Source: Humibacillus sp.
GTDB lineage: Bacteria; Actinomycetota; Actinomycetes; Actinomycetales; Dermatophilaceae
NCBI GenBank assembly: GCA_030452985.1
Contig: JAKDLG010000009.1
Coordinates: forward strand, 1-64,000
Length of the DNA: 64,000 nt
Direction of reading: 5' to 3'
In this document: piece by piece, positions 6,724-53,360 of the stretch
Numbering within the stretch: position 1 is the stretch's first letter
Layout of the letters: every line of letters begins with the position of its first letter
Notes under the pieces: model-generated
What the model saw: the letters and a program-made list of their open reading frames with translations, nothing else
The model's database searches: none
Told to the model about the DNA's origin: nothing
Made by a program: the position numbers and the translations under genes

Positions 6724-8280
6724 TCATCGGAGGGGGCCGGTGACGGTCTCGACGGCGGCAAGCGCCCGACCCGACGCCACCAGCTCGACCGCGGCCTCGA
6801 TCTCCGGGGCGAGGAAGCGGTCGGTGCCGACGCCGTCGACCTCGCGCCGCAGCTCGGTGATGACCGCGCCGGTGGCCGCCGCGGGCTCGAGCGGCGATCG
6901 CATCTCGATGCCGCGGGCTGCGGTCAGCAGCTCGACGGCCAGCACCCGGGTCAAGCCGTCGACCGAGCGCCGCAGCTTGCGGGCGCCCGACCACCCCATC
7001 GAGACGTGGTCCTCCTGCATGGCCGAGCTGGGGATCGAGTCGACCGAGGCCGGCACCGCGAGGCGCTTCATCTCGGAGACGATCGCCGCCTGGGTGTACT
7101 GGGCGATCATGTGCCCGCTGTCGACCCCGGGGTCGTCGGCGAGAAAGGCGTTGAGGCCGTGGCTGCGCGCCTTGTCGAGGAAACGGTCGGTGCGACGCTC
7201 GCTCATCGACGCGACGTCAGCGGCGACGATGGCGAGGAAGTCGAGCACGTAGGCGACCGGCGCCCCGTGGAAGTTGCCGTTCGACTCGACCCGGCCGTCC
7301 TTCGTGACGACGGGGTTGTCTACGGCAGAGGCCAGCTCGCACCCCGCGACCCGGGCCGCGTGCTCAACGGTGTCGCGGGCGCCGCCGGCCACCTGGGGCG
7401 CGCACCGCAGCGAGTAGGCGTCCTGCACCCGGGTGCAGCCCTCGTTGTCGTGGGAGGCACGAATCGGGCTGCCGCTCATGACCGTTCGGATATTGGCAGC
7501 CGAGAGGGCTTGTCCCTGCTGGGGCCTCAGCTCGTGCAGGTCGGCCGCGAACACGGCGTCGGTGCCCATCAGCCCCTCGACGCTCATGGCGGCAGTGATG
7601 TCGGCCACCTTCAGCAGCATCCGCAGGTCAGTGATCGCCAGCGCAAGCATCCCGAGCATGCCGTCGGTGCCGTTGATGAGCGCCAGCCCCTCCTTCTCGG
7701 CGAGCACGACCGGCTCGATCCCGTGGTCGCGCAGGGCGCTCGCGGCGTCGGTCGAGGTGCCGTCGGCGAGCCGGACCGGGCCCTCCCCCATCACCGCGAG
7801 GGCGCAGTGCGCGAGCGGGGCGAGGTCGCCCGAGCAGCCGAGCGAACCGTACTCGTGCACGATGGGGGTGATACCGGCACTCAGCACCGCCGCATAGGCC
7901 CGAGCCGTCTCGAGCCGAATGCCGGTGCGCCCGGTGGCCAGGGTCGACAGCCGCAGCAGCATCAACGCCCGCACGACCTCCTGCTCGACCTCCGGGCCGC
8001 TGCCGGCCGCGTGCGAACGCACCAGCGACCGCTGCAGCTGAGCGCGCAGTGCGACGGGTATGTGCCGGGTGGCGAGGGCACCGAAGCCGGTCGAGACGCC
8101 GTAGTGGGGCGCCGTGTCAGACGCGAGCGCCTCGATGATCTCGCGGCTGCGGCTGATCTCGGTCTCCGACTCGGGGGTCAGCACCACGTCGGCGCCGTGC
8201 CGGGCGACCGCCACGACGTCCTCGATGGAGAGGGGTTGCAGCCCGACGCTGACGGTGACGCTGGCGGTGGTTTCGGTCAT
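6724..8280 (-). CDS. hutH: Histidine ammonia-lyase (HutH)
   Basis: Deaminates L-histidine to urocanate, the entry step of the pathway. The 518-residue protein has the family's YGVSTGFG loop and the prosthetic-group region GSLGCSGDLAPLAHCAL, where the MIO cofactor forms autocatalytically from the tripeptide. Here the triad reads Cys-Ser-Gly instead of the more common Ala-Ser-Gly. Later GNFHGAPVAYVLDFLAI and QEDHVSMG match the family. It is the first gene of the hutH-hutU transcript and is divergent from an IclR regulator across a 96-bp region with a palindromic operator. Confidence 0.97.
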   Translation of the reverse strand: MTETTASVTVSVGLQPLSIEDVVAVARHGADVVLTPESETEISRSREIIEALASDTAPHYGVSTGFGALATRHIPVALRAQLQRSLVRSHAAGSGPEVEQEVVRALMLLRLSTLATGRTGIRLETARAYAAVLSAGITPIVHEYGSLGCSGDLAPLAHCALAVMGEGPVRLADGTSTDAASALRDHGIEPVVLAEKEGLALINGTDGMLGMLALAITDLRMLLKVADITAAMSVEGLMGTDAVFAADLHELRPQQGQALSAANIRTVMSGSPIRASHDNEGCTRVQDAYSLRCAPQVAGGARDTVEHAARVAGCELASAVDNPVVTKDGRVESNGNFHGAPVAYVLDFLAIVAADVASMSERRTDRFLDKARSHGLNAFLADDPGVDSGHMIAQYTQAAIVSEMKRLAVPASVDSIPSSAMQEDHVSMGWSGARKLRRSVDGLTRVLAVELLTAARGIEMRSPLEPAAATGAVITELRREVDGVGTDRFLAPEIEAAVELVASGRALAAVETVTGPLR

Positions 8281-8327
8281 GTCCTCATCGAACCGGCCCG
8301 ACGGTGGCGCGTCACCAGGGAAAGAGG

Positions 8328-8357
8328 CATAGTTGTCTCAGATGTGAGACGTTTATG
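8328..8357. promoter_or_regulatory. Candidate IclR operator between hutH and its regulator
   Basis: GTCTCAGATGTGAGAC (8335-8350) is a perfect inverted repeat of GTCTCA with a four-base spacer. A second symmetric pair flanks it at equal distance: CATA at 8328-8331 and TATG at 8354-8357. It lies in the only intergenic gap shared by hutH and the iclR gene, 20-50 bases before each start. That placement suits a regulator controlling both its own gene and the hut operon. The protein-site pairing is inferred. Confidence 0.7.
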
Positions 8358-8376
8358 CCCGGCAGGGAGGTAGGCC

Positions 8377-9162
8377 ATGTCGAACGCCCCCGCGGCCGGA
8401 CACGCCCTCGACGTGCTCGAGCACCTCTCACGCCACGCCGAACCCGTACCGGCCGCCTCGATCGCCCGCGACCTGACGCTCCCGCGCTCGACGGTCTACC
8501 ACCTGCTCTCGCTGCTCCAGGACCGCGGCTACGTCACCCACTACGTCGAGGAGCGCCGCTTCGGCCTCGGGCAGGCCGCCTACGAGCTCGGCTCGGCCTA
8601 CCAGCGCCAGGCCCCCCTCGCGCGCCTCGCCCGAGGCGCCATCCGCCGCCTGGTCGACCAGTGCGGTCGCAACGCCCACTTCGCCACCCTCGACGGGCGC
8701 GATGTCATCTACCTGTTGGAGGAGCGGGCCTCGGGGCAGCCGATGCTCGTCACCGATGTCGGGGTCCGCCTGCCGGGGCACCTGACCGCCAGCGGGCTGG
8801 CCATGCTCGCCGGTCTCCCGGCCAGCCAGGTGCGCGCTCTCTACCCCGACTGCGACTCCTTCACCCAGCGTCACGAACGCGGGCCGAAGTCGCTCAGCGA
8901 GCTGCGCGGCATCCTCACCCGTACCCGCACCGATGGCTACGCCCGCGAGGACGGGACGGTGACGCCTGACCTGTCGTCGATCGCTGTCGCCATCACCGAC
9001 CGGACCGGCCATTCCCCTGCTGCCATCGCGGTGACCTTCCGCTCGCGGGAGGCCACCGACGAGCACGTCACCGGGCTCGTGACGCTCACCCGGGCGGCGA
9101 CCGCCGACGTCGCACGGCGACTGCGCCCCAGCGCCGGCGCAGCGAAAACACCCGTGCGCTGA
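8377..9162 (+). CDS. IclR-family transcriptional regulator, probable hut regulator
   Basis: A 261-residue IclR-type protein. The N-terminal winged helix-turn-helix spans about residues 5-65 (ALDVLEHLSRH then LPRSTVYHLLSLLQDRGYV), followed by the effector-binding domain (LARGAIRRLVDQCGRNAHFATL, LPGHLTASGLAMLAGL, YAREDGTVTPDLSSIAVAI). It is divergent from hutH and shares the palindromic operator at 8335-8350. The likely ligand is histidine or urocanate, which is inference. ATG start follows GGGAGG. Confidence 0.85.
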   Translation: MSNAPAAGHALDVLEHLSRHAEPVPAASIARDLTLPRSTVYHLLSLLQDRGYVTHYVEERRFGLGQAAYELGSAYQRQAPLARLARGAIRRLVDQCGRNAHFATLDGRDVIYLLEERASGQPMLVTDVGVRLPGHLTASGLAMLAGLPASQVRALYPDCDSFTQRHERGPKSLSELRGILTRTRTDGYAREDGTVTPDLSSIAVAITDRTGHSPAAIAVTFRSREATDEHVTGLVTLTRAATADVARRLRPSAGAAKTPVR

Positions 9163-9188
9163 CGGGTCGGTTCTTCTATCGTCGCCCC

Positions 9189-9911
9189 ATGAACGTTCAC
9201 CTCGTCGGGGGCGGCTGGGACGACGCGCTCGCGCCCACCCTCTACGGGGGGTTCGTCCGGGCGGCCGCCCGCCGTGCCGGCGACCGGCCGCGCCTCGTGC
9301 TCGTGGTCGTGGGTACCGACGCCGAGTCGCTCGCCTACCACGAGAAGTACGTCGAAGCCCTCGGCCTCGTCGGCGGGCACGACCTGGTCGTGGAGCGCGT
9401 GGCCGAGGGCTCACCCTTCGACCCCACGACCCTGGCCGGTGTCGACGGGCTCTTCGTCGGCGGCGGGCTGACCCCCGACTACCACGCGTCGCTCGCTCCG
9501 GCCTACCCCCGCATCCGTGAGCTCGTCGAAGCCGGGATGCCGTACGCCGGCTTCTCGGCCGGAGCGGCCATCGCGGCCACGCACGCCATCGTCGGGGGCT
9601 GGCGCATCGACGGGGTGCCCGTGTGCCCGGAAGAGAGCAACGAAGAACTGGAGCCGGTCACGGTGGTCTCGGGTATCGGGCTCGTCGACGGGGCCGTCGA
9701 CGTGCACGCGGCCCAGTGGGGCAACCTGTCGCGGCTCATCGCAGCCGTCGAGGCGGGACTGGTGCCCCGAGGAGTGGCGATCGACGAGGGCACCGTGCTG
9801 GGGCCCGATGACATCGTCGCCGGCCAGGGATGCGTGTGGCGCGTCAGCCGTGCCGAGCCCGAAAGCGGGACGAACGGGGTCGAGGTTCGCCGGGTCGGGG
9901 CCGGTCAATAG
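9189..9911 (+). CDS. Peptidase S51-type protein (class I glutamine amidotransferase-like fold)
   Basis: A 240-residue cytoplasmic protein of the S51 family (dipeptidase E / cyanophycinase relatives). The nucleophile elbow FSAGAAIAATHAIVGG contains the catalytic Ser around residue 121, following the GLFVGGGLTPDYH loop. No signal peptide or membrane segment is present. It starts 26 bp after the iclR stop and ends 9 bp before a quinone oxidoreductase, so it may be cotranscribed with either. The substrate is unknown. A second, secreted S51 protein occurs at 51.2-53.1 kb. Confidence 0.78.
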   Translation: MNVHLVGGGWDDALAPTLYGGFVRAAARRAGDRPRLVLVVVGTDAESLAYHEKYVEALGLVGGHDLVVERVAEGSPFDPTTLAGVDGLFVGGGLTPDYHASLAPAYPRIRELVEAGMPYAGFSAGAAIAATHAIVGGWRIDGVPVCPEESNEELEPVTVVSGIGLVDGAVDVHAAQWGNLSRLIAAVEAGLVPRGVAIDEGTVLGPDDIVAGQGCVWRVSRAEPESGTNGVEVRRVGAGQ

Positions 9912-45849: not shown

Positions 45850-47472
45850 ATGAGCCCGGTCGACGCGAACCACCAGAGCCCTGCCGACATCGTGTTCTCC
45901 GGTGGCCCAATCCTGACGATGGATGCCGCCGGGTCCCGTCCCGAGGCCGTGGCCCTTCGCTACGGCCGGGTGGTTGCCGTCGGATCTCTGGATGAGGTGA
46001 ACGGTCTGGCCGGGCGGCTGACCGAGCGGGTCGATCTCGACGGGCGGACCCTGCTGCCCGGGCTGATCGACCCCCACATGCACTCCGCCATGGTGCAGCT
46101 CGCCGACTGGGTCGACGTGAGCCCGATGGCCACGCCGACCGCCGACGAGGTCTACACCGCTCTGCGCGGCGCCAGCGCGACGAGCACCGGTTGGGTGCTG
46201 GCGCAGCAGTTCGACCCGAGCATCACTGAGGGCCACCCTCGCCTCGACCGCGAGACCCTCGACCGCCTCGTGCCCGACCGTCCCCTGCTCGTGCTGGAGA
46301 GCAACGGCCACGTCGCCTGGGTCAACTCCGCGGCGCTGGATCGGGCCGGCGTCGATCGTGACACGCCCGACCCGCCGGCCGGTCGCTACAGCCGGGATGG
46401 GAACGGCGAGCTGACCGGGCGTCTCGAGGAGTCGCCTGCCGTGTGGGCCTTCACCATCGGCTTCCCCCTCGTCACCGGCGCCGCGCTCGAGGGCCGCATC
46501 CGAAATCTGTTGTGGCACGCGGCCGGACAAGGCGTCACACTGCTGCACGACTGCGGTATCGGGTCGATCGACGGGGCCACCGACCTCGACGGCCTGCGCC
46601 GCGCTGTCGACGAAGCGACTCCCGTGCGCTACCGGGGCATGCTCGTCTCGAACGCGTACGACGCCTGGGCCCAGCTCGGGCTCCGGCCCGGGTTCGGCGA
46701 CGACCGGTTCCGGGTCGACGGGATCAAGGCTTGGTCAGACGGGTCGAACCAGGCCGGCACCGGGTTCCAGCGCGAGCTCTACCTCGGCACCGACTCCTGC
46801 GGGTCGCTCAACTACTCCCCCGACGAGCTGGCCGAGGTCGTGCTGCGCGCGCACCGCGACGGCTGGCAGATCGGTGTGCACGCCAACGGCGACGCCGCCA
46901 TCGACGTCACGATCGATGCCTTCGAGCGTGCCCTGACCGCAGCTCCGCGCGATGACCACCGGCACCGCATCGAGCACTGCAGCGTGCTGCACCCCGAGCA
47001 GATGGCGCGGATGGCGGCGCTCGGGCTCTCCCCCTCGTTCCTCATCGGTCACCTCCGCTGGTGGGGCACGGCCTTCCGCGACCGGCTCCTCGGCCCGGAG
47101 CGTTCGGCGCTCTACGACCCGTGCGCCTCGGCCCTGCGGGCCGGGCTGCGCATCTCGTTGCACAGCGACTGGAACGTCACCCCGTTGGAGCCGCTGCGCT
47201 ACGTGGAGGATGCCGTCATGCGGGCCATGGCCGAGAACGGCGAGGTGCTGAACGCCGACGAACGTATCAGCGTCGAGGCGGCGCTGAGGGCCGTCACCAT
47301 CGACGCTGCCTGGCAGTGTCGCGCCGACGACGTGACCGGCTCGATAGAGGTCGGGAAGTACGCCGATCTCGTTCTGCTCGAAGACAACCCGGCTACGGTC
47401 GACCCGACCACGATCTCGGGAATCGGCGTCTCCGAGACGCGGCTGGCGGGCGAGGTGCGCTACTCGCGGTGA
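45850..47472 (+). CDS. YtcJ-like metal-dependent amidohydrolase
   Basis: A 540-residue amidohydrolase-3 family enzyme. The metal-binding LLPGLIDPHMHSAMVQLADWVDV, the central HVAWVNSAALDRAGVD, GWQIGVHANGDAAIDVTIDAFE, HRIEHCSVLHPEQMARM and SLHSDWNVTPLEPL match YtcJ-type proteins, which act on cyclic amides or N-acyl compounds. No signal peptide. It ends just upstream of the redox operon promoter. Substrate is unknown. Confidence 0.87.
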   Translation: MSPVDANHQSPADIVFSGGPILTMDAAGSRPEAVALRYGRVVAVGSLDEVNGLAGRLTERVDLDGRTLLPGLIDPHMHSAMVQLADWVDVSPMATPTADEVYTALRGASATSTGWVLAQQFDPSITEGHPRLDRETLDRLVPDRPLLVLESNGHVAWVNSAALDRAGVDRDTPDPPAGRYSRDGNGELTGRLEESPAVWAFTIGFPLVTGAALEGRIRNLLWHAAGQGVTLLHDCGIGSIDGATDLDGLRRAVDEATPVRYRGMLVSNAYDAWAQLGLRPGFGDDRFRVDGIKAWSDGSNQAGTGFQRELYLGTDSCGSLNYSPDELAEVVLRAHRDGWQIGVHANGDAAIDVTIDAFERALTAAPRDDHRHRIEHCSVLHPEQMARMAALGLSPSFLIGHLRWWGTAFRDRLLGPERSALYDPCASALRAGLRISLHSDWNVTPLEPLRYVEDAVMRAMAENGEVLNADERISVEAALRAVTIDAAWQCRADDVTGSIEVGKYADLVLLEDNPATVDPTTISGIGVSETRLAGEVRYSR

Positions 47473-47568: not shown

Positions 47569-47597
47569 TTGCCCCGATTTACTACGAACCGTAGTAT
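47569..47597 (+). promoter_or_regulatory. Promoter of the redox operon with 17-bp palindromic operator
   Basis: TTGCCC (47569-47574), 17 bases, TAGTAT (47592-47597) form a sigma-70-like promoter. The perfect 7-3-7 palindrome TACTACGAACCGTAGTA (47580-47596) covers the spacer and most of the -10, the classic position for a repressor. A near-identical palindrome overlaps the -10 of the PPOX gene at 37218. The site resembles BlaI/MecI-type operators; no such regulator is encoded in the window. Confidence 0.65.
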
Positions 47598-47734
47598 GTT
47601 CCACGCCCGGTGGAGCCACCGCGCTGAACCGATCGGCAGTCTGCTTCTCCTCGAAGGGAGCCCCCGGCAATGGAAGACGAGAGGCCCCCGCCCTGCGCGC
47701 GGGTGTCGACTTCCGCGGCACACAGAATGCGACC

Positions 47735-48196
47735 GTGCGAGTCTCCGAGCACGTCAGGCCGGGGAGGAAGCGCGCCCCGCTGCTGCGCTACGTGCGCATC
47801 AATCTGCCGCGGGCCACTCGGCTGCTCCTGCTCTTGGTCGTCGCCGTCATCGGGGCGGCGTCTGCGGCCGTCGCCCTGAGTGATCACCCACCCTTCGCCT
47901 TCGCCACCCCGATCCTGTGGGCCGTCTGCGGTGCGGCTGTCGTGTTCGGCGCGATGGGGCTCGTGACGTCGGCCCGCATCTGGGCCTGGGGCGCAGGAAT
48001 CGCCGTGGCCTCCCTGTTGGTCTACTTCGGTGGCCTCGCGGGCGATGCCCCGTACGTGTGGAACGGTGCCAGCGTCGTGCTGGCCGCGACGTGGAACGTG
48101 ACGCTCCTGGCGTCCATCGGCTATCTCGTCCTGTTCTGGGCGCTGCGGTACGGGACCATCGTCGCCGCTCCCGACGACCAGAACTTCATGGACTGA
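47735..48196 (+). CDS. Small membrane protein, first gene of the redox operon
   Basis: A 153-residue protein with four hydrophobic helices (LLLLLVVAVIGAASAAVAL, ILWAVCGAAVVFGAMGLVT, WGAGIAVASLLVYFGGLAG, ATWNVTLLASIGYLVLFWA) and a basic N-terminus. No family is recognised. GTG 47735 has a weak ribosome site. A much better ATG with AAGGGAG exists at 47670 but in another frame, so an N-terminal frameshift is possible. It is 14 bp upstream of the cytochrome/molybdopterin gene, which argues for a partner role such as a membrane anchor or quinone-site subunit. Confidence 0.7.
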   Translation: MRVSEHVRPGRKRAPLLRYVRINLPRATRLLLLLVVAVIGAASAAVALSDHPPFAFATPILWAVCGAAVVFGAMGLVTSARIWAWGAGIAVASLLVYFGGLAGDAPYVWNGASVVLAATWNVTLLASIGYLVLFWALRYGTIVAAPDDQNFMD

Positions 48197-48210
48197 GAAG
48201 GAGCTTCGTC

Positions 48211-49728
48211 ATGGATCTCGGCTTTCCCTGGTGGCTCCGCGTGGAGCACTTCCTCAACCTCGTCTTCATCTCGTTCCTGGTTCGCTCGGGTATCGAGATC
48301 CTCGGCACCTACCCCAAGCTGTACCGCTCGCAGCACACTGTGGCCGGCACGGCCTGGGCCCAGTTCACGGTCCAGCGGGCGCCCAAGCACAAGTACTACA
48401 CGGTGGGCGGTGAGTACGACGACTACTCTCCCCGCCTCTCCCTGCCGGGCCGCGGGCTGCTGGGCCTGGGGCGGTACTGGCACTTCATCACCGTCACGGG
48501 CTTCGTCACCTCGTGGGTGATCTACTTCGTGCTGTTGGTCTTCACGGGGCAGTGGCGGCGGTACGTCCCCACCTCACTGGACACCTTCACCCAGGCCGGT
48601 CACGACATGCTCGCCTATCTGGCGTTCACGGTTCCCGGTGCCGTGGAGGGGATGCCGTTCAACGCGGTGCAGCAGCTGTCCTACGGCTTCGTCATCCTGG
48701 TCCTCACCCCGCTGGTGATCATCACGGGCGCGTTCCAGTCGCCGGCCATCGCCAACTACTTCTCGCGCATCACGCGCGCCGTCGGTGGCCGTCAGGTGAT
48801 CCGCACCGTCCATTTCCTGTGCCTCGTCGGGTACGTCGCGTTCTTCGTGGTGCACGTGCTGATGGTCCTGATCCACGGGTACGCCCACGAGACGTCGAAG
48901 ATGGTGTTCGGCAGCACCGATCTTCCGGTGGCAGGCGGGATCATCTTCACCGTCAGTCTCATCGTCGTGGTGGCCCTGCACGTCGTGGCCACTCGCTGGA
49001 CGCTGGCCGACGGCCGTGCTGTCGAAAGGCTGCACAACGTGGTGGTGCGGCCGTGGTCGAACCTGCTCTACCGCCTGCCGGCCCGAATGCACTACAGCCG
49101 CTCCAACGTCTCCGGAGAGGACGTGGGGCTGCAGAACACCACCCACAACTTCCGGGGAAGCGGGCGACCACCGGAGGCCAAGGAGTACCTGGCCCTGATG
49201 GCCAACGGCTACGACGACGACTACGTGCTCGAGATCGGTGGTTACGTCGAGCGCCCGATGTCGCTGACCATCCGCGATCTGCGCGAGCTCGCCGACGGCC
49301 ACTCCCAGACCACTCTGCACCACTGTGTACAGGGCTTCTCCTCGATCGGGCGATGGCGCGGGATCACCGTCTCCGACCTGCTCGACCTCGCCGGGCCCCT
49401 CCCCGGCGCGACCGACGTCGTGTACACGAGCTTCCAGAACATGGGCCGCGACGACGCCCTGTACGAGGGCGGCACGTACTACGAGTCCAACCCGATGATC
49501 GAGGCGCGGATGCCGCAGACCCTCATCGCCTTCGAGCTCAACGACGAGGGTGAGATCCCGGCCAAGAACGGCGCCCCCGTGCGGTTGCGCATGGAGACCT
49601 CGACCGGGTTCCGCAGCCTGAAGTGGCTGGAGCGGATCGAGGTGGTGAACCGCTACGACATCATCGGCCAGGGTCGCGGTGGCTACTTCGAGGACGCCGA
49701 CTTCTACGACCGCAACCAGCTGATCTGA
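48211..49728 (+). CDS. Cytochrome b-type membrane domain fused to sulfite-oxidase-family molybdopterin domain
   Basis: A 505-residue fusion. Residues 1 to about 265 are a heme b membrane domain: helices with candidate heme histidines in RVEHFLNLVFISFLVRSG, YWHFITVTGFVTSWVIYF and HFLCLVGYVAFFVVHVLMVL, resembling thiosulfate-reductase or b561-type cytochromes. From about 320 it becomes a SUOX/MsrP-like molybdopterin domain, with Cys372 in HHCVQGFSSIGRWRGI as the expected Mo ligand and TSTGFRSLKWLERIE near the end. The molybdopterin part lacks its own signal peptide, so the topology decides on which side it faces. It would pass electrons between a substrate and the quinone pool. AAGGAG precedes ATG 48211. 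Confidence 0.85.
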   Translation: MDLGFPWWLRVEHFLNLVFISFLVRSGIEILGTYPKLYRSQHTVAGTAWAQFTVQRAPKHKYYTVGGEYDDYSPRLSLPGRGLLGLGRYWHFITVTGFVTSWVIYFVLLVFTGQWRRYVPTSLDTFTQAGHDMLAYLAFTVPGAVEGMPFNAVQQLSYGFVILVLTPLVIITGAFQSPAIANYFSRITRAVGGRQVIRTVHFLCLVGYVAFFVVHVLMVLIHGYAHETSKMVFGSTDLPVAGGIIFTVSLIVVVALHVVATRWTLADGRAVERLHNVVVRPWSNLLYRLPARMHYSRSNVSGEDVGLQNTTHNFRGSGRPPEAKEYLALMANGYDDDYVLEIGGYVERPMSLTIRDLRELADGHSQTTLHHCVQGFSSIGRWRGITVSDLLDLAGPLPGATDVVYTSFQNMGRDDALYEGGTYYESNPMIEARMPQTLIAFELNDEGEIPAKNGAPVRLRMETSTGFRSLKWLERIEVVNRYDIIGQGRGGYFEDADFYDRNQLI

Positions 49729-49759
49729 CCGGCACACCAGGAAGGAGAGGCAGACAATC

Positions 49760-50767
49760 ATGACGACCAACAGGATTCGCCCCATCGCCCCGGCCCCGGC
49801 CGAGGCCCGCGTCGCCCAGCGGCCACGGACCCAGTCGGGGCTCGACGCCCTCGTCGCCGAGTGGCCCCGACCGGTGCGCAACACGTTCGACGGGATGTTC
49901 CCGCTGCACGAGGACCTCGAGCTGTCTGACGAGCAGGTGAAGATCGTGCTCGACTACGTCCAGGAGGTTGACTTCCACCTGCCCGGGGCGACCCCAGAGG
50001 AGTTCCTCGTGGTCCGCTGGGCCCGCTACACCGGGTTCCAGCTGGTGCAGGAACCTCTGGAGGCGTATGCCGTCGGGCTCCGGTGCACCCATCCGGGCCT
50101 GGAAGGCCAGCACACCTTCATCCGCATGTCGTGGGCCCAGCTCATGGGCGATCCCGAAGCGCCTAGCCTGCCCGTCAACGAGCCGGTGCTGGCGAGCGAC
50201 ATGATGACGCTGGCCCGCTATCGCGACACCCGCACCGGGCCCTCGAGAACAGGTGTCGACGCGTACGCTGCGACCGCCCCTGACGGGGTGCCGGGTGCCG
50301 ATTTCGACCTGCGGCTGCTCAGCGGAGCGCTCGACGACGTGCTGGCCCACCACGCGACGGGTTGCGGCCGCGAGATCAACTCGTGGTGGAACCCGGCCCT
50401 GAACTGGGGGGTCGCTCTCGCCGGACGCTACCCCCGCCTGAAGTACTTCCAGTCGAAGGGTCGCCTCGACGAGGCGACGTCGACCACCCTGCGCTCTTTC
50501 GAAGAGCGGTCGGCGCAGGCGGAGCCGGTGTTGCGCGAGCTGGGCCTGGCCTCTCCCGCGCCGGTGGCGGATACGGCGCTCAGACAGGCAGCGAAGGCCG
50601 AGAGTGGCACACTCGTGCATCGCCTGCGGATCCGCAACCCGCGGCCCCTCACCGAGTCGCGGCCCGACGACGGCCCGACAGCGGCGGAGGACACCCGGCC
50701 CCACACCGAACCTCGATCTGGGTCGGTGACCCCGTCGTCCGACGGCCCCACACCAACCAGCCCCTAG
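49760..50767 (+). CDS. Conserved-looking hypothetical protein of the redox operon
   Basis: A 335-residue soluble protein without recognised family, signal peptide or membrane helix. The central part (EFLVVRWARYTGFQLVQEPL, GLEGQHTFIRMSWAQLMGDP, LLSGALDDVLAHHATGCG, WWNPALNWGVALAGRYPRL) looks folded; the last 60 residues are Pro/Thr/Asp-rich and disordered. HHATGCG could bind metal or cofactor. AAGGAGAGG precedes ATG 49760, 31 bp after the cytochrome fusion. Context suggests a cytoplasmic or assembly partner, which is inference only. Confidence 0.75.
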   Translation: MTTNRIRPIAPAPAEARVAQRPRTQSGLDALVAEWPRPVRNTFDGMFPLHEDLELSDEQVKIVLDYVQEVDFHLPGATPEEFLVVRWARYTGFQLVQEPLEAYAVGLRCTHPGLEGQHTFIRMSWAQLMGDPEAPSLPVNEPVLASDMMTLARYRDTRTGPSRTGVDAYAATAPDGVPGADFDLRLLSGALDDVLAHHATGCGREINSWWNPALNWGVALAGRYPRLKYFQSKGRLDEATSTTLRSFEERSAQAEPVLRELGLASPAPVADTALRQAAKAESGTLVHRLRIRNPRPLTESRPDDGPTAAEDTRPHTEPRSGSVTPSSDGPTPTSP

Positions 50768-50783
50768 CGGAAGCGAGAGCACC

Positions 50784-51086
50784 ATGCCCCTGTACCAAGC
50801 CGTCTCGGTCGTCGGATCGGTCCTGCTACTGGCCGCCTACGCCGGCCTGCAGACCGGAAAGCTCAACCCCAGCACGTCCTACATCTACCAGCTGTTCAAC
50901 TTGGTCGGCGCCGCCTGCCTGACCTACTCGGTCATCGAGCCGTTCAACTCCGGGGTGTTCATCACCGAGTTCTGCTGGACCATCTTCAGCATCGTCGGCG
51001 TGGTCAAGCTGGTGCGGATGCGCGACGCCAACCGTGCCGCGGCAGAAGCTGACGCGCCAGAGGAAGCGGCCCGCCCCGCCGGCTGA
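50784..51086 (+). CDS. CBU_0592-type small membrane protein
   Basis: A 100-residue membrane protein with three helices: AVSVVGSVLLLAAYAGLQTG, YIYQLFNLVGAACLTYSVI and FITEFCWTIFSIVGVVKLV, followed by a charged Ala/Glu tail. The YIYQLFNLVGA pattern matches the CBU_0592 family of unknown function. It lies 16 bp after the preceding gene, the last member of the redox operon. Confidence 0.75.
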   Translation: MPLYQAVSVVGSVLLLAAYAGLQTGKLNPSTSYIYQLFNLVGAACLTYSVIEPFNSGVFITEFCWTIFSIVGVVKLVRMRDANRAAAEADAPEEAARPAG

Positions 51087-51149: not shown

Positions 51150-53069
51150 TCAGATGCGCTGGCCGGGACCGAAGGTGCTGATCAAGCCGTTGATCATGCC
51201 GAAGGTGCCGTTGCTGGCGCTCAGGAACCGAGCGTAGCGGGCGTCCAGGGTGGTGACGGATCGATCACCGACCACCCGAGCGCGACCGTGCCCCAGCTCG
51301 AGGGCCGTCAGTTCACTGACACCCACCGACAGCGTGCTGGGGTGCGGGCGGGCGGCATCGAACAAGCGACCCCAGCGGTAGTCCCGGGTCAGTCTCGGCT
51401 CGAGGGTGGCGTCGCTAACCACATCGAATCCAGGTTGAAGCTCTGCGTTGCCGGCTCGGAAGTCACGGACGGCCTCGTCTTCGAGCGTGTTCTCGTCGGG
51501 GTCCGCATCGGTGGCGTAGCGCGTGCCCATTGCCGCAGTCATGGCCCCATCGGTCATGACGACGGCGCTGTCACGGGCCGACGCCTTGACTGCGGTGGCG
51601 AAGGCGCGGTCCGAGACCGCCCCGCCGATCTCGGACTGGCCGCCGCCGATCAGGATGACTCCCGCTGCCCCCTTCACGGTCTTCGCGTTGATGCGATCGA
51701 CGCCGTGCACCTTGATCAGAACCTGCCCGAGATCGGTGCGGCCGGTGGCGGCCAGCGCGTCGCGATACGTCTTTGCGTCGGCCCGGGCGGCAGTGACGTC
51801 GGCGTACCCGGCAGCAATGATCACGACGCGCTGCGACGAGCCCTTCCCGGCAATCTGAGCGAACCGCTTCATCACCGCAGCCGACCCGTCGGCGTTGTCA
51901 CCACCCCCGAGCAACAGGGTGGCCCGAGCCGACGTGGTGATCTTCGGAGTGGCCCGGCCGGCTCGATCCGGCAGCCGAACGGGGCGTCCGTCGACGATCG
52001 GCAGCCGGCGGGTCAGGTCGTAGGTCATTCCCGTACCGGGGGCCTGGAGGTGGGTGAGCACGTTGCGCGCGGTGAGGGTCTGCTTCGGTCCGACCCAGGT
52101 CGGAGCGACCCTGGTGGTGCCGTAGTCGAGGATCGCCACCGACGAGTCACCGACGATCGTGGTCAGCTTCTGGTCGTCGATGTCGGTGACGCCGGTGGCG
52201 TAGTCGACCCCGACCCCGACCAGCCCTCCGGGTGTTCGGGGAACGGACTGAGCCGTCAGGTTGAGCAGTCGGCCGAAGCGGCCGCGCTGGTAGAAGTGCT
52301 GGTCGAAGATGGTGCGGCGGGAACCGAAGCTCAACCCTCGTTCGGCATCGCTGTCGTCACCCCACCAGATCAGCGGGGAGTCCTTCTCCAGGCCGTTCTC
52401 GGCGTAGCCGTCGTCGCTGTAGCCCGCCGTCATGGAGCGGGACTGCACGGCAGCGCCGGCGCTGGTGCCGCTGATCACCACCCCCCGCCGATAGGCCCGG
52501 GCCATGGCCTTCTCGGCCGGGGAGTTGGCCAGGATGGTCATGGCGAGGTTCTGGTCGCCACCGAGGATGAAGGCACCGTCGGTGAGGGCGGAGTCGAAGG
52601 CCGTGGAGTTTCTCGGATCCATCGCGTCGGCGCGGTTCAGCAGCACCAGCAAGGTGGCGTTGCACCCGGTGAAGGACCGTCGCAAGCTGGGCGAGGCGGC
52701 AACCGTCGCGTCGCAGATGGCGTCGATCTGGCTCGTGCGCTCCCTCGCCAGCGCCAGGTTCGCGTCGCGGTCTTCGGGAGCATCGCCGTAGCTGGAGGGA
52801 ACGACGAGGATGTCGACCGTCTTTCCGGTGGCCTGCTGTGCCGTGACGGTCGAGAAGCCGCTCAGAGCGTTCTCCTCGTAACCGCCGCCAATGGGCAGCA
52901 GGACCCGCGCTCCGTGGTGGTAGAGGCCGCTCGTGGTGGCGGCGAAGGCGGTGCTGCCGACACCGAGAGGGAGCAGACTGAGGCCGACGACGCAGGCGGC
53001 GAGGCGGCTCGGCTGGCGCAGCCTGCGGCTCGACGTGGCGCTACGGATGCTGGCTGTCGTCTTCGACAT
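51150..53069 (-). CDS. Secreted tandem-S51 (cyanophycinase-like) protein, second domain degenerate
   Basis: A 639-residue exported protein. The signal peptide has a basic start (RRLRQPSR) and core LAACVVGLSLLPLGVG ending near AFAA. Domain 1 (about 45-330) has the active S51 elbow VVISGTSAGAAVQSRSM and the cyanophycinase signature FDQHFYQRGRFGRLLN. Domain 2 (about 385-600) repeats the fold, with ILIGGGQSEIGGAV, but the elbow reads VVMTDGAMTAAMG, lacking Ser, and the His region reads SDATLEPRLTRDYRWGRLF. ATG 53069 follows GAGGGG. Domain 1 probably cleaves an aspartyl or polyamide substrate outside the cell; domain 2 may bind it. Confidence 0.85.
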   Translation of the reverse strand: MSKTTASIRSATSSRRLRQPSRLAACVVGLSLLPLGVGSTAFAATTSGLYHHGARVLLPIGGGYEENALSGFSTVTAQQATGKTVDILVVPSSYGDAPEDRDANLALARERTSQIDAICDATVAASPSLRRSFTGCNATLLVLLNRADAMDPRNSTAFDSALTDGAFILGGDQNLAMTILANSPAEKAMARAYRRGVVISGTSAGAAVQSRSMTAGYSDDGYAENGLEKDSPLIWWGDDSDAERGLSFGSRRTIFDQHFYQRGRFGRLLNLTAQSVPRTPGGLVGVGVDYATGVTDIDDQKLTTIVGDSSVAILDYGTTRVAPTWVGPKQTLTARNVLTHLQAPGTGMTYDLTRRLPIVDGRPVRLPDRAGRATPKITTSARATLLLGGGDNADGSAAVMKRFAQIAGKGSSQRVVIIAAGYADVTAARADAKTYRDALAATGRTDLGQVLIKVHGVDRINAKTVKGAAGVILIGGGQSEIGGAVSDRAFATAVKASARDSAVVMTDGAMTAAMGTRYATDADPDENTLEDEAVRDFRAGNAELQPGFDVVSDATLEPRLTRDYRWGRLFDAARPHPSTLSVGVSELTALELGHGRARVVGDRSVTTLDARYARFLSASNGTFGMINGLISTFGPGQRI

Positions 53070-53360
53070 GGGCGGGCCCCTCGACACAGATAGACCGGTA
53101 TGAGCATTTCCTGCGGCACGCTATCTGTTGACCCCACCGCGGGTCCAGACCCGGCGGCCAGTGAAGGGGACTGGGCCTCGACCTACGACCTGACGAGGAG
53201 GTGGACCAGGGTCGACACATCGGCGTCCACCCCTGATGGCGAGTCGCGTCCTGGGCGCACGACGCGTCGGGTCGCCGGTCATGTCGCTGCTGATGTCGTC
53301 TCAGCAACACCTCCTGCGACACGACTCGCGATGTGACCTGTCGGGGGCGCGCCTGGCCCG
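53070..53360. other. Intergenic region upstream of the secreted S51 gene
   Basis: No convincing gene. The small ORFs listed here are Arg/Pro/Ser-rich and unsupported by a ribosome site. The stretch should hold the promoter of the S51 gene and the end of the hydrolase transcript. Partly repeated GTCGCTGCTGATGTCGTCTC-like triplet patterns occur around 53283, but I see no clear palindrome. Confidence 0.4.

Follow-up and report, generated by a model that had tools for sequence, protein, structure and literature searches.

Related systems and organization of the locus

Known bacterial enzymes of the sulfite oxidase (SUOX) family of molybdenum (Mo) enzymes mostly act outside the membrane after export by the twin-arginine translocation (Tat) pathway. 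In MsrPQ (YedYZ), a YedY-like Mo domain with a conserved Cys ligand is paired with a heme b membrane partner; the two are separate subunits and MsrP is Tat-exported. SorA, SorT and SoxC also have a SUOX-family Mo domain, are exported, deliver electrons to cytochrome c and carry a dimerisation domain. A single-chain heme b / Mo cofactor fusion, Sco3746, was described in 2017 (Tooke et al., eLife, PMC5449189). It comprises five transmembrane (TM) helices with heme-binding His residues followed by a SUOX-fold Mo domain that lies outside, having been Tat-exported via a twin-arginine (RR) motif before TM5; its measured topology is N-in (PMC5449189). Here we describe a locus of Humibacillus sp. that encodes a fusion of this known architecture, B, together with two partners, A and C. 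The three genes form a conserved unit, and the Mo domain of B is predicted to face the cytoplasm. The locus lies within positions 1 to 64,000 of contig JAKDLG010000009.1, referred to below as the window.

The locus comprises four + strand open reading frames (ORFs) in the order A, B, C, D, separated by 14, 31 and 16 bp. These coordinates bear out the first-pass annotation of this DNA, which had described four closely spaced forward genes.

Gene A, readable ORF: 47735–48196, + strand, 153 aa
Gene A by homology: 47671–48196, + strand, four-TM membrane partner; GTG 47735 is the first readable start
Gene B: 48211–49728, + strand, 505 aa, five-TM cytochrome b / SUOX-family molybdopterin fusion
Gene C: 49760–50767, + strand, 335 aa, soluble, two accessory domains fused
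Gene D: 50784–51086, + strand, 100 aa, CBU_0592-family small membrane protein, accessory

A, B and C are conserved as a unit

We scanned 85,462 species genomes, recovering only stretches that match short peptide patterns, and obtained at least 29 loci. A flanked B in all 26 orthologous loci with enough upstream sequence, and C followed B in all 28 with enough downstream sequence. Because A and C are constant across two phyla while the genes around A-B-C vary between loci, the three genes form a conserved unit that travels as a cassette. By contrast, D was present in 8 of the 11 actinobacterial loci, usually in two copies, and in none of the 17 proteobacterial loci, and is an accessory, optional and lineage-bound component. 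The four-gene operon of the first-pass annotation therefore stands for A-B-C and not for D. The neighbourhood search that it had called for was also to show whether the molybdopterin gene occurs mostly without its partners, which is not the case for A and C. The assignment of D to the CBU_0592 family was confirmed (NCBIfam, 74.2 bits against a cut-off of 25).

Tandem pairs of CBU_0592 genes adjoin the actinobacterial cassettes at L023 (7535–8164), L024 (8206–8779), L025 (8215–8857) and L012 (8597–9189); at L027 (4629–5214) the pair is divergent from and upstream of the cassette. In Vreelandella jeotgali (L016), an unrelated ORF (7838–9280, minus strand) lies between B and C.

Close homologues of C are sparsely distributed. 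Of the 397 actinobacterial genomes sampled, only the one containing the window had any; they occurred in 3 of 58 close relatives (own genome included) and, among 274 gammaproteobacterial genomes, only in the one that supplied the query. Halomonas halodenitrificans and Oceanimonas smirnovii are cultured bacteria that carry A-B-C. When the tree of B was rooted with sister fusions from actinobacteria, the 17 sequences from proteobacteria fell into a single clade (100/99) nested within those from actinobacteria. Between the window and the proteobacteria, B is 83% identical and RecA 72%. The cassette was transferred horizontally, from actinobacteria into proteobacteria. A plasmid location was rejected: no plasmid carried a B orthologue of >60% identity, and none carried C.

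B is a di-heme cytochrome b fused to a SUOX-fold Mo domain

B can be divided into three parts, as follows.

Di-heme cytochrome b part, residues 5–234: 48223–48912, + strand, PF01292; heme ligands H13, H91, H201 and H215
TM5, about residues 241–262: 48931–48996, + strand, not preceded by a twin-arginine motif
Molybdopterin domain, residues 336–481: 49216–49653, + strand, PF00174; Cys372; no Mo-co dimerisation domain

According to Pfam searches, B contains a Ni_hydr_CYTB domain (47.5 bits, gathering cut-off 30.1) and an Oxidored_molyb domain (90.7 bits, cut-off 24), and no Mo-co dimerisation domain was detected. The Mo-ligand Cys372 (codon 49324–49326) is invariant across 34 B-type fusions, as are H13, H91, H201, H215 and Gln374, down to ~35% identity. 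The structure prediction proposed in the first-pass annotation recovered five long helices followed by a SUOX domain, at low confidence (predicted local distance difference test, pLDDT, 59.8), and Foldseek matched this model to SUOX-fold structures. Thus, the claim that a cytochrome b and a SUOX-family molybdopterin domain share one chain, with the Mo-ligand Cys kept, is upheld. The further claim that such a chain is unusual is not: Sco3746 was already described, and many bacteria and archaea have B-type fusions, annotated there only as molybdopterin-dependent oxidoreductases. Some of them, at 33–35% identity, are plasmid-borne in rhizobia, Rhodococcus and haloarchaea.

In sequence and fold, the Mo domain is nearest to YedY/MsrP (PDB 1xdq/YedY, E 2e-18; Foldseek 1xdy and 2ca4). 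Nevertheless, B scored 53.9 bits against the MsrP model (NCBIfam NF003767), far under its equivalog cut-off of 207. The equivalents of the MsrP residues E104 and H151 are Gln and Met in B, and position 434 of B varies among the 34 fusions. B also missed the equivalog cut-offs of SorA, SorT and SoxC (42.4/600, 15.4/570 and 30.4/420 bits, respectively). The first-pass suggestion of sulfite or sulfoxide as substrate is neither strengthened nor contradicted. The arrangement is not that of a separate, Tat-exported MsrP beside MsrQ, as B is a single chain with neither a signal peptide nor an RR.

The cytochrome b part resembles FdnI, the gamma subunit of formate dehydrogenase-N and, like this part of B, a Ni_hydr_CYTB-type protein. 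The four heme His residues have the same spacing, and N151/Q154 of B align with N110/Q113 of FdnI, which line a quinone site in that protein; Q154 is invariant among the fusions compared. FdnI differs from B in having four TM helices, in serving a separate external enzyme, and in its charge pattern, described below.

Two further B paralogues, of 37–38% identity, occur in the source genome without A or C (L031/L049, G000:C342; L032/L050, G000:C88). The latter has an extra N-terminal helix.

The Mo domain of B is predicted to be cytoplasmic

The first-pass annotation had noted that no signal peptide precedes the molybdopterin domain, which is correct, and had left the membrane side to the helix count. 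Three other features bear on the side. The RR before TM5 is absent from B and from 33 of the 34 B-type fusions. In all 34, Lys and Arg residues are few in the N-terminus and loops 2 and 4 (L2 and L4; 2–5) and numerous in loops 1 and 3 (L1 and L3) and the C-flank (12–21). By contrast, three Sco3746-like proteins with an RR from the sampled genomes have 15–17 such residues in the N-terminus, L2 and L4 versus 3, and the charge pattern of FdnI is likewise opposite to that of the B-type fusions. Finally, ten relatives carry an extra N-terminal TM helix with a positive N-flank, which would turn the core N-out. Because the RR is missing, the charge pattern is reversed and relatives have the extra helix, we favour an N-out/C-in topology for B, which would place its Mo domain in the cytoplasm, the reverse of the N-in, Mo-outside arrangement of the Sco3746 type. 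TM5 of B is also more hydrophobic (mean Kyte–Doolittle (KD) value 2.42) than in the Tat-type proteins compared (1.5–2.0). Sco3746 differs from B further in its shorter loops, and B in its FdnI-type His pattern and its partners A and C. This B-type pattern, and its prediction of a cytoplasmic Mo domain from sequence, is one of two elements that are new here; the other is the origin of C.

C unites two accessory proteins, and A is a conserved membrane partner

C was described initially as a 335-residue protein of no known family. It indeed matched no Pfam or NCBIfam family, and its origin can now be specified. Remote matches to C in other actinobacteria are two small separate genes adjoining B-like fusions: one encodes a ribbon-like protein of ~85–107 aa with four conserved Cys, the other a helical protein of ~105–148 aa. 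In profile comparisons, the first half of C matched the ribbon-like protein (hhalign 97.9%, E 3.7e-13) and the second half the helical protein (97.6%, E 3.7e-12); the unrelated controls were not significant. C is thus a fusion of two accessory proteins that are encoded separately beside sister fusions.

C, N-terminal domain, residues 44–138: 49889–50173, + strand, homologous to the separate 4-Cys ribbon-like protein
C, C-terminal helical domain, residues 176–268: 50285–50563, + strand, homologous to the separate ~105-aa protein

Three of the four ribbon Cys are lost in C, which makes a metal-binding role in the cassette improbable. No signal sequence is visible in C or in its separate homologues. 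A weak match to AF_0587 pre-PUA (best E 0.011) was set aside because its motif falls in the region common with the separate helical protein.

The conserved N-terminus of A, MEDE...PALRAGVDFRGT, begins at ATG 47671 according to homologues. A one-base difference from locus L001 near 47685 puts this start out of frame with the remainder of A. Gene A as first called therefore appears truncated at its 5' end, and the frame break in the start region (47671–47740) is either a sequencing error or a real truncation. The C-terminal tail of A is conserved (VAAPDxQNFxD). A matched no Pfam or NCBIfam family; the Pfam matches that it returned (RhaB_D2 and others) look like chance and were rejected. The initial proposal of a specialised redox system that includes two partners from no known family is supported.

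Sister clusters with separate ribbon and helical genes also hold a distant A homologue (hhalign 97.3%, E 2e-11). Several sister clusters encode a lipoprotein-like protein that weakly matches beta-propellers (for example, L046 9177–10250, minus strand, and L047 6018–7052), which is absent from the A-B-C cassette. In two clusters of the order A-propeller-B-ribbon-helix, genes for a formate dehydrogenase alpha and an Fe-S subunit are adjacent; the alpha genes (L102 135–4276; L104 10726–13950, minus strand) contain an in-frame TGA in a selenocysteine-like context.

The upstream palindrome is probably a local operator

Upstream of A is a perfect 7-3-7 palindrome, reading TACTACG-AAC-CGTAGTA.

Palindrome TACTACGAACCGTAGTA: 47580–47596, strand not assigned, operator-like, private to the source genome

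The chance expectation for this pattern, allowing up to 2 mismatches, is 0.01 matches per window. The presence of a palindromic promoter at orthologous loci had been set beforehand as a test of the operon: the palindrome was missing from all 23 orthologous upstream regions examined, including that of L001, whose B is 98% identical. Some 7-base palindrome occurs in 6 of these 23 regions, so the length by itself is unremarkable. The 5.5-Mb genome contains exactly one further perfect copy, at an unrelated locus (L034 1501–1517; G000:C81:30653–30669), where it separates divergently oriented arginine-deiminase-like and reductase/SDR-like genes. As the palindrome is missing at orthologues and recurs exactly once elsewhere in the genome, it is probably a local operator outside the conserved cassette; the idea of a conserved operator was rejected on the same 23 regions. 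The two copies suggest a small regulon of a putative, perhaps TetR-like, regulator. No sigma-70 consensus was matched upstream of the genes, a weak test in this organism. Of the shared promoter with a repressor-like palindrome that had been claimed, the palindrome itself is confirmed, and the promoter and the conservation of the palindrome are not.

The A-B-C-D genes are flanked upstream by an Amidohydro_3 hydrolase (window 45850–47472) and downstream by a large peptidase S51 / cyanophycinase-like protein whose N-terminus is secretion-like (window 51150–53087, minus strand). Neighbouring genes were rejected as a clue to the substrate, since no flanking gene is common to most loci; transporter-like genes lie near some loci only. 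A guess from habitat (fermented fish and brines, hence N-oxides) was dropped as anecdotal.

Proposed mechanism and alternatives

We propose that A-B-C is a horizontally mobile, self-contained, quinol-linked respiratory molybdoenzyme with a cytoplasmic Mo domain, a model to which we give an even chance of being correct. B would be the core, its five helices and two b hemes fused to the SUOX-fold Mo domain. With the chain N-out/C-in, the Mo domain would remain in the cytoplasm and Tat export would not be needed. H91/H201 would lie on the inner side beside the Mo domain, and H13/H215 on the far, outer side beside the quinone site. Quinol would be oxidised near the outer face, electrons would pass inward through both hemes, and a cytoplasmic oxo-substrate would be reduced at the Mo centre. 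A would be a membrane subunit. C, with its degenerate ribbon and helical domain, would meet the Mo domain in the cytoplasm and may be an assembly subunit or one on the electron/substrate side. We infer the orientation, quinone use, reductase direction and partner roles. The layout would be vectorial and NarGHI-like, within one polypeptide. NarGHI is a working analogy only, with no homology claimed: it shares the proposed five-TM, N-out di-heme b part, the outer quinol site and the cytoplasmic Mo centre, whereas NarG belongs to the DMSO-reductase family and works with the Fe-S subunit NarH, and B lacks Fe-S clusters and carries its SUOX-fold Mo domain on the cytochrome b chain itself.

Two alternatives concern the orientation of B or the direction of electron flow. 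B might face outward like Sco3746, being N-in with five TM helices and an external Mo domain. Tat would then export it despite the lack of a recognisable RR, and it would reduce methionine sulfoxide, sulfoxides or N-oxides. The measured topology and similar plan of Sco3746, the orientation of FdnI, the MsrP-type Mo domain as best relative and the putative outer lipoprotein of sister clusters all agree with this possibility. We nonetheless consider it rather unlikely in view of the near-absence of the RR, the reversed charges, the extra N-terminal helix of relatives, the score under the MsrP cut-off, the loss of E104 and H151 and the variability at position 434. Alternatively, the same cytoplasm-facing B could be a dehydrogenase, oxidising a cytoplasmic substrate such as sulfite at Mo and passing electrons to the quinone pool. 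SUOX-fold relatives do include sulfite dehydrogenases, and some sister clusters adjoin quinone-linked dehydrogenase-like genes. However, B missed the SorA, SoxC and SorT cut-offs by hundreds of bits and has no Mo-co dimerisation domain, and with the quinone site outside, membrane potential would be spent and not conserved; we judge this direction distinctly unlikely. The quinol-driven reductase is preferred because quinol oxidation outside with reduction inside would conserve energy and the reverse would cost it.

Other alternatives concern the partners. C and its separate homologues could be maturation chaperones only, for insertion of the Mo cofactor or heme, with A an assembly factor; this is compatible with either orientation of B. 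C is soluble, rare and tied to one enzyme type, its ribbon is partly degenerate, and the own-genome paralogues of B lack C and A, all of which would suit a chaperone. On the other hand, strict co-transfer suits subunits equally well and C matched no known chaperone fold, and we regard the chaperone role as quite possible, if a little short of probable. That the genes are neighbours by chance is consistent with the lack of conservation of the palindrome and D. For A-B-C it is refuted by the presence of A and C with B at every orthologous locus, in two phyla and amid differing flanks, and we give it practically no weight.

Several observations weigh against the respiratory, cytoplasm-facing model. 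FdnI-family cytochromes and Sco3746, by measurement (PMC5449189), are N-in, so the inversion is a strong claim. The charge counts come from related, and hence non-independent, sequences; the conserved loop-3 Arg might serve heme propionates instead of topology; and the positive-inside rule holds poorly for long loops such as loop 1. The paralogue at G000:C342 is the sole B-type fusion seen with an RR before TM5. The lipoprotein-like beta-propeller of sister clusters should lie outside. The formate dehydrogenase genes with in-frame UGA adjoin two sister clusters and not the others, and hint at a respiratory context that is not general. The model of B is of low confidence, the AlphaFold model of C (pLDDT 65) had no significant PDB match, and no neighbour gene names a substrate.

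Implications

None of the open-access literature searched describes the A-B-C cassette, C or the inverted charge pattern; on this cluster, CBU_0592 and further Sco3746 work, the searches yielded nothing beyond PMC5449189 and a review mentioning Sco3746. Tentatively, and with more doubt than confidence, we suggest that B-type fusions may be a widespread, unrecognised class of inward-facing, energy-conserving SUOX-fold quinol reductases. They would be a single-chain functional counterpart of NarGHI and, in topology, the mirror image of the Tat-dependent class represented by Sco3746, with A-B-C as a complete mobile respiratory module. If so, the same parts would have been assembled in two opposite membrane orientations, a single gene would serve as a model of a redox half-loop, and many bacteria of soils and seas, as well as haloarchaea, would prove to have an unassigned respiratory activity.

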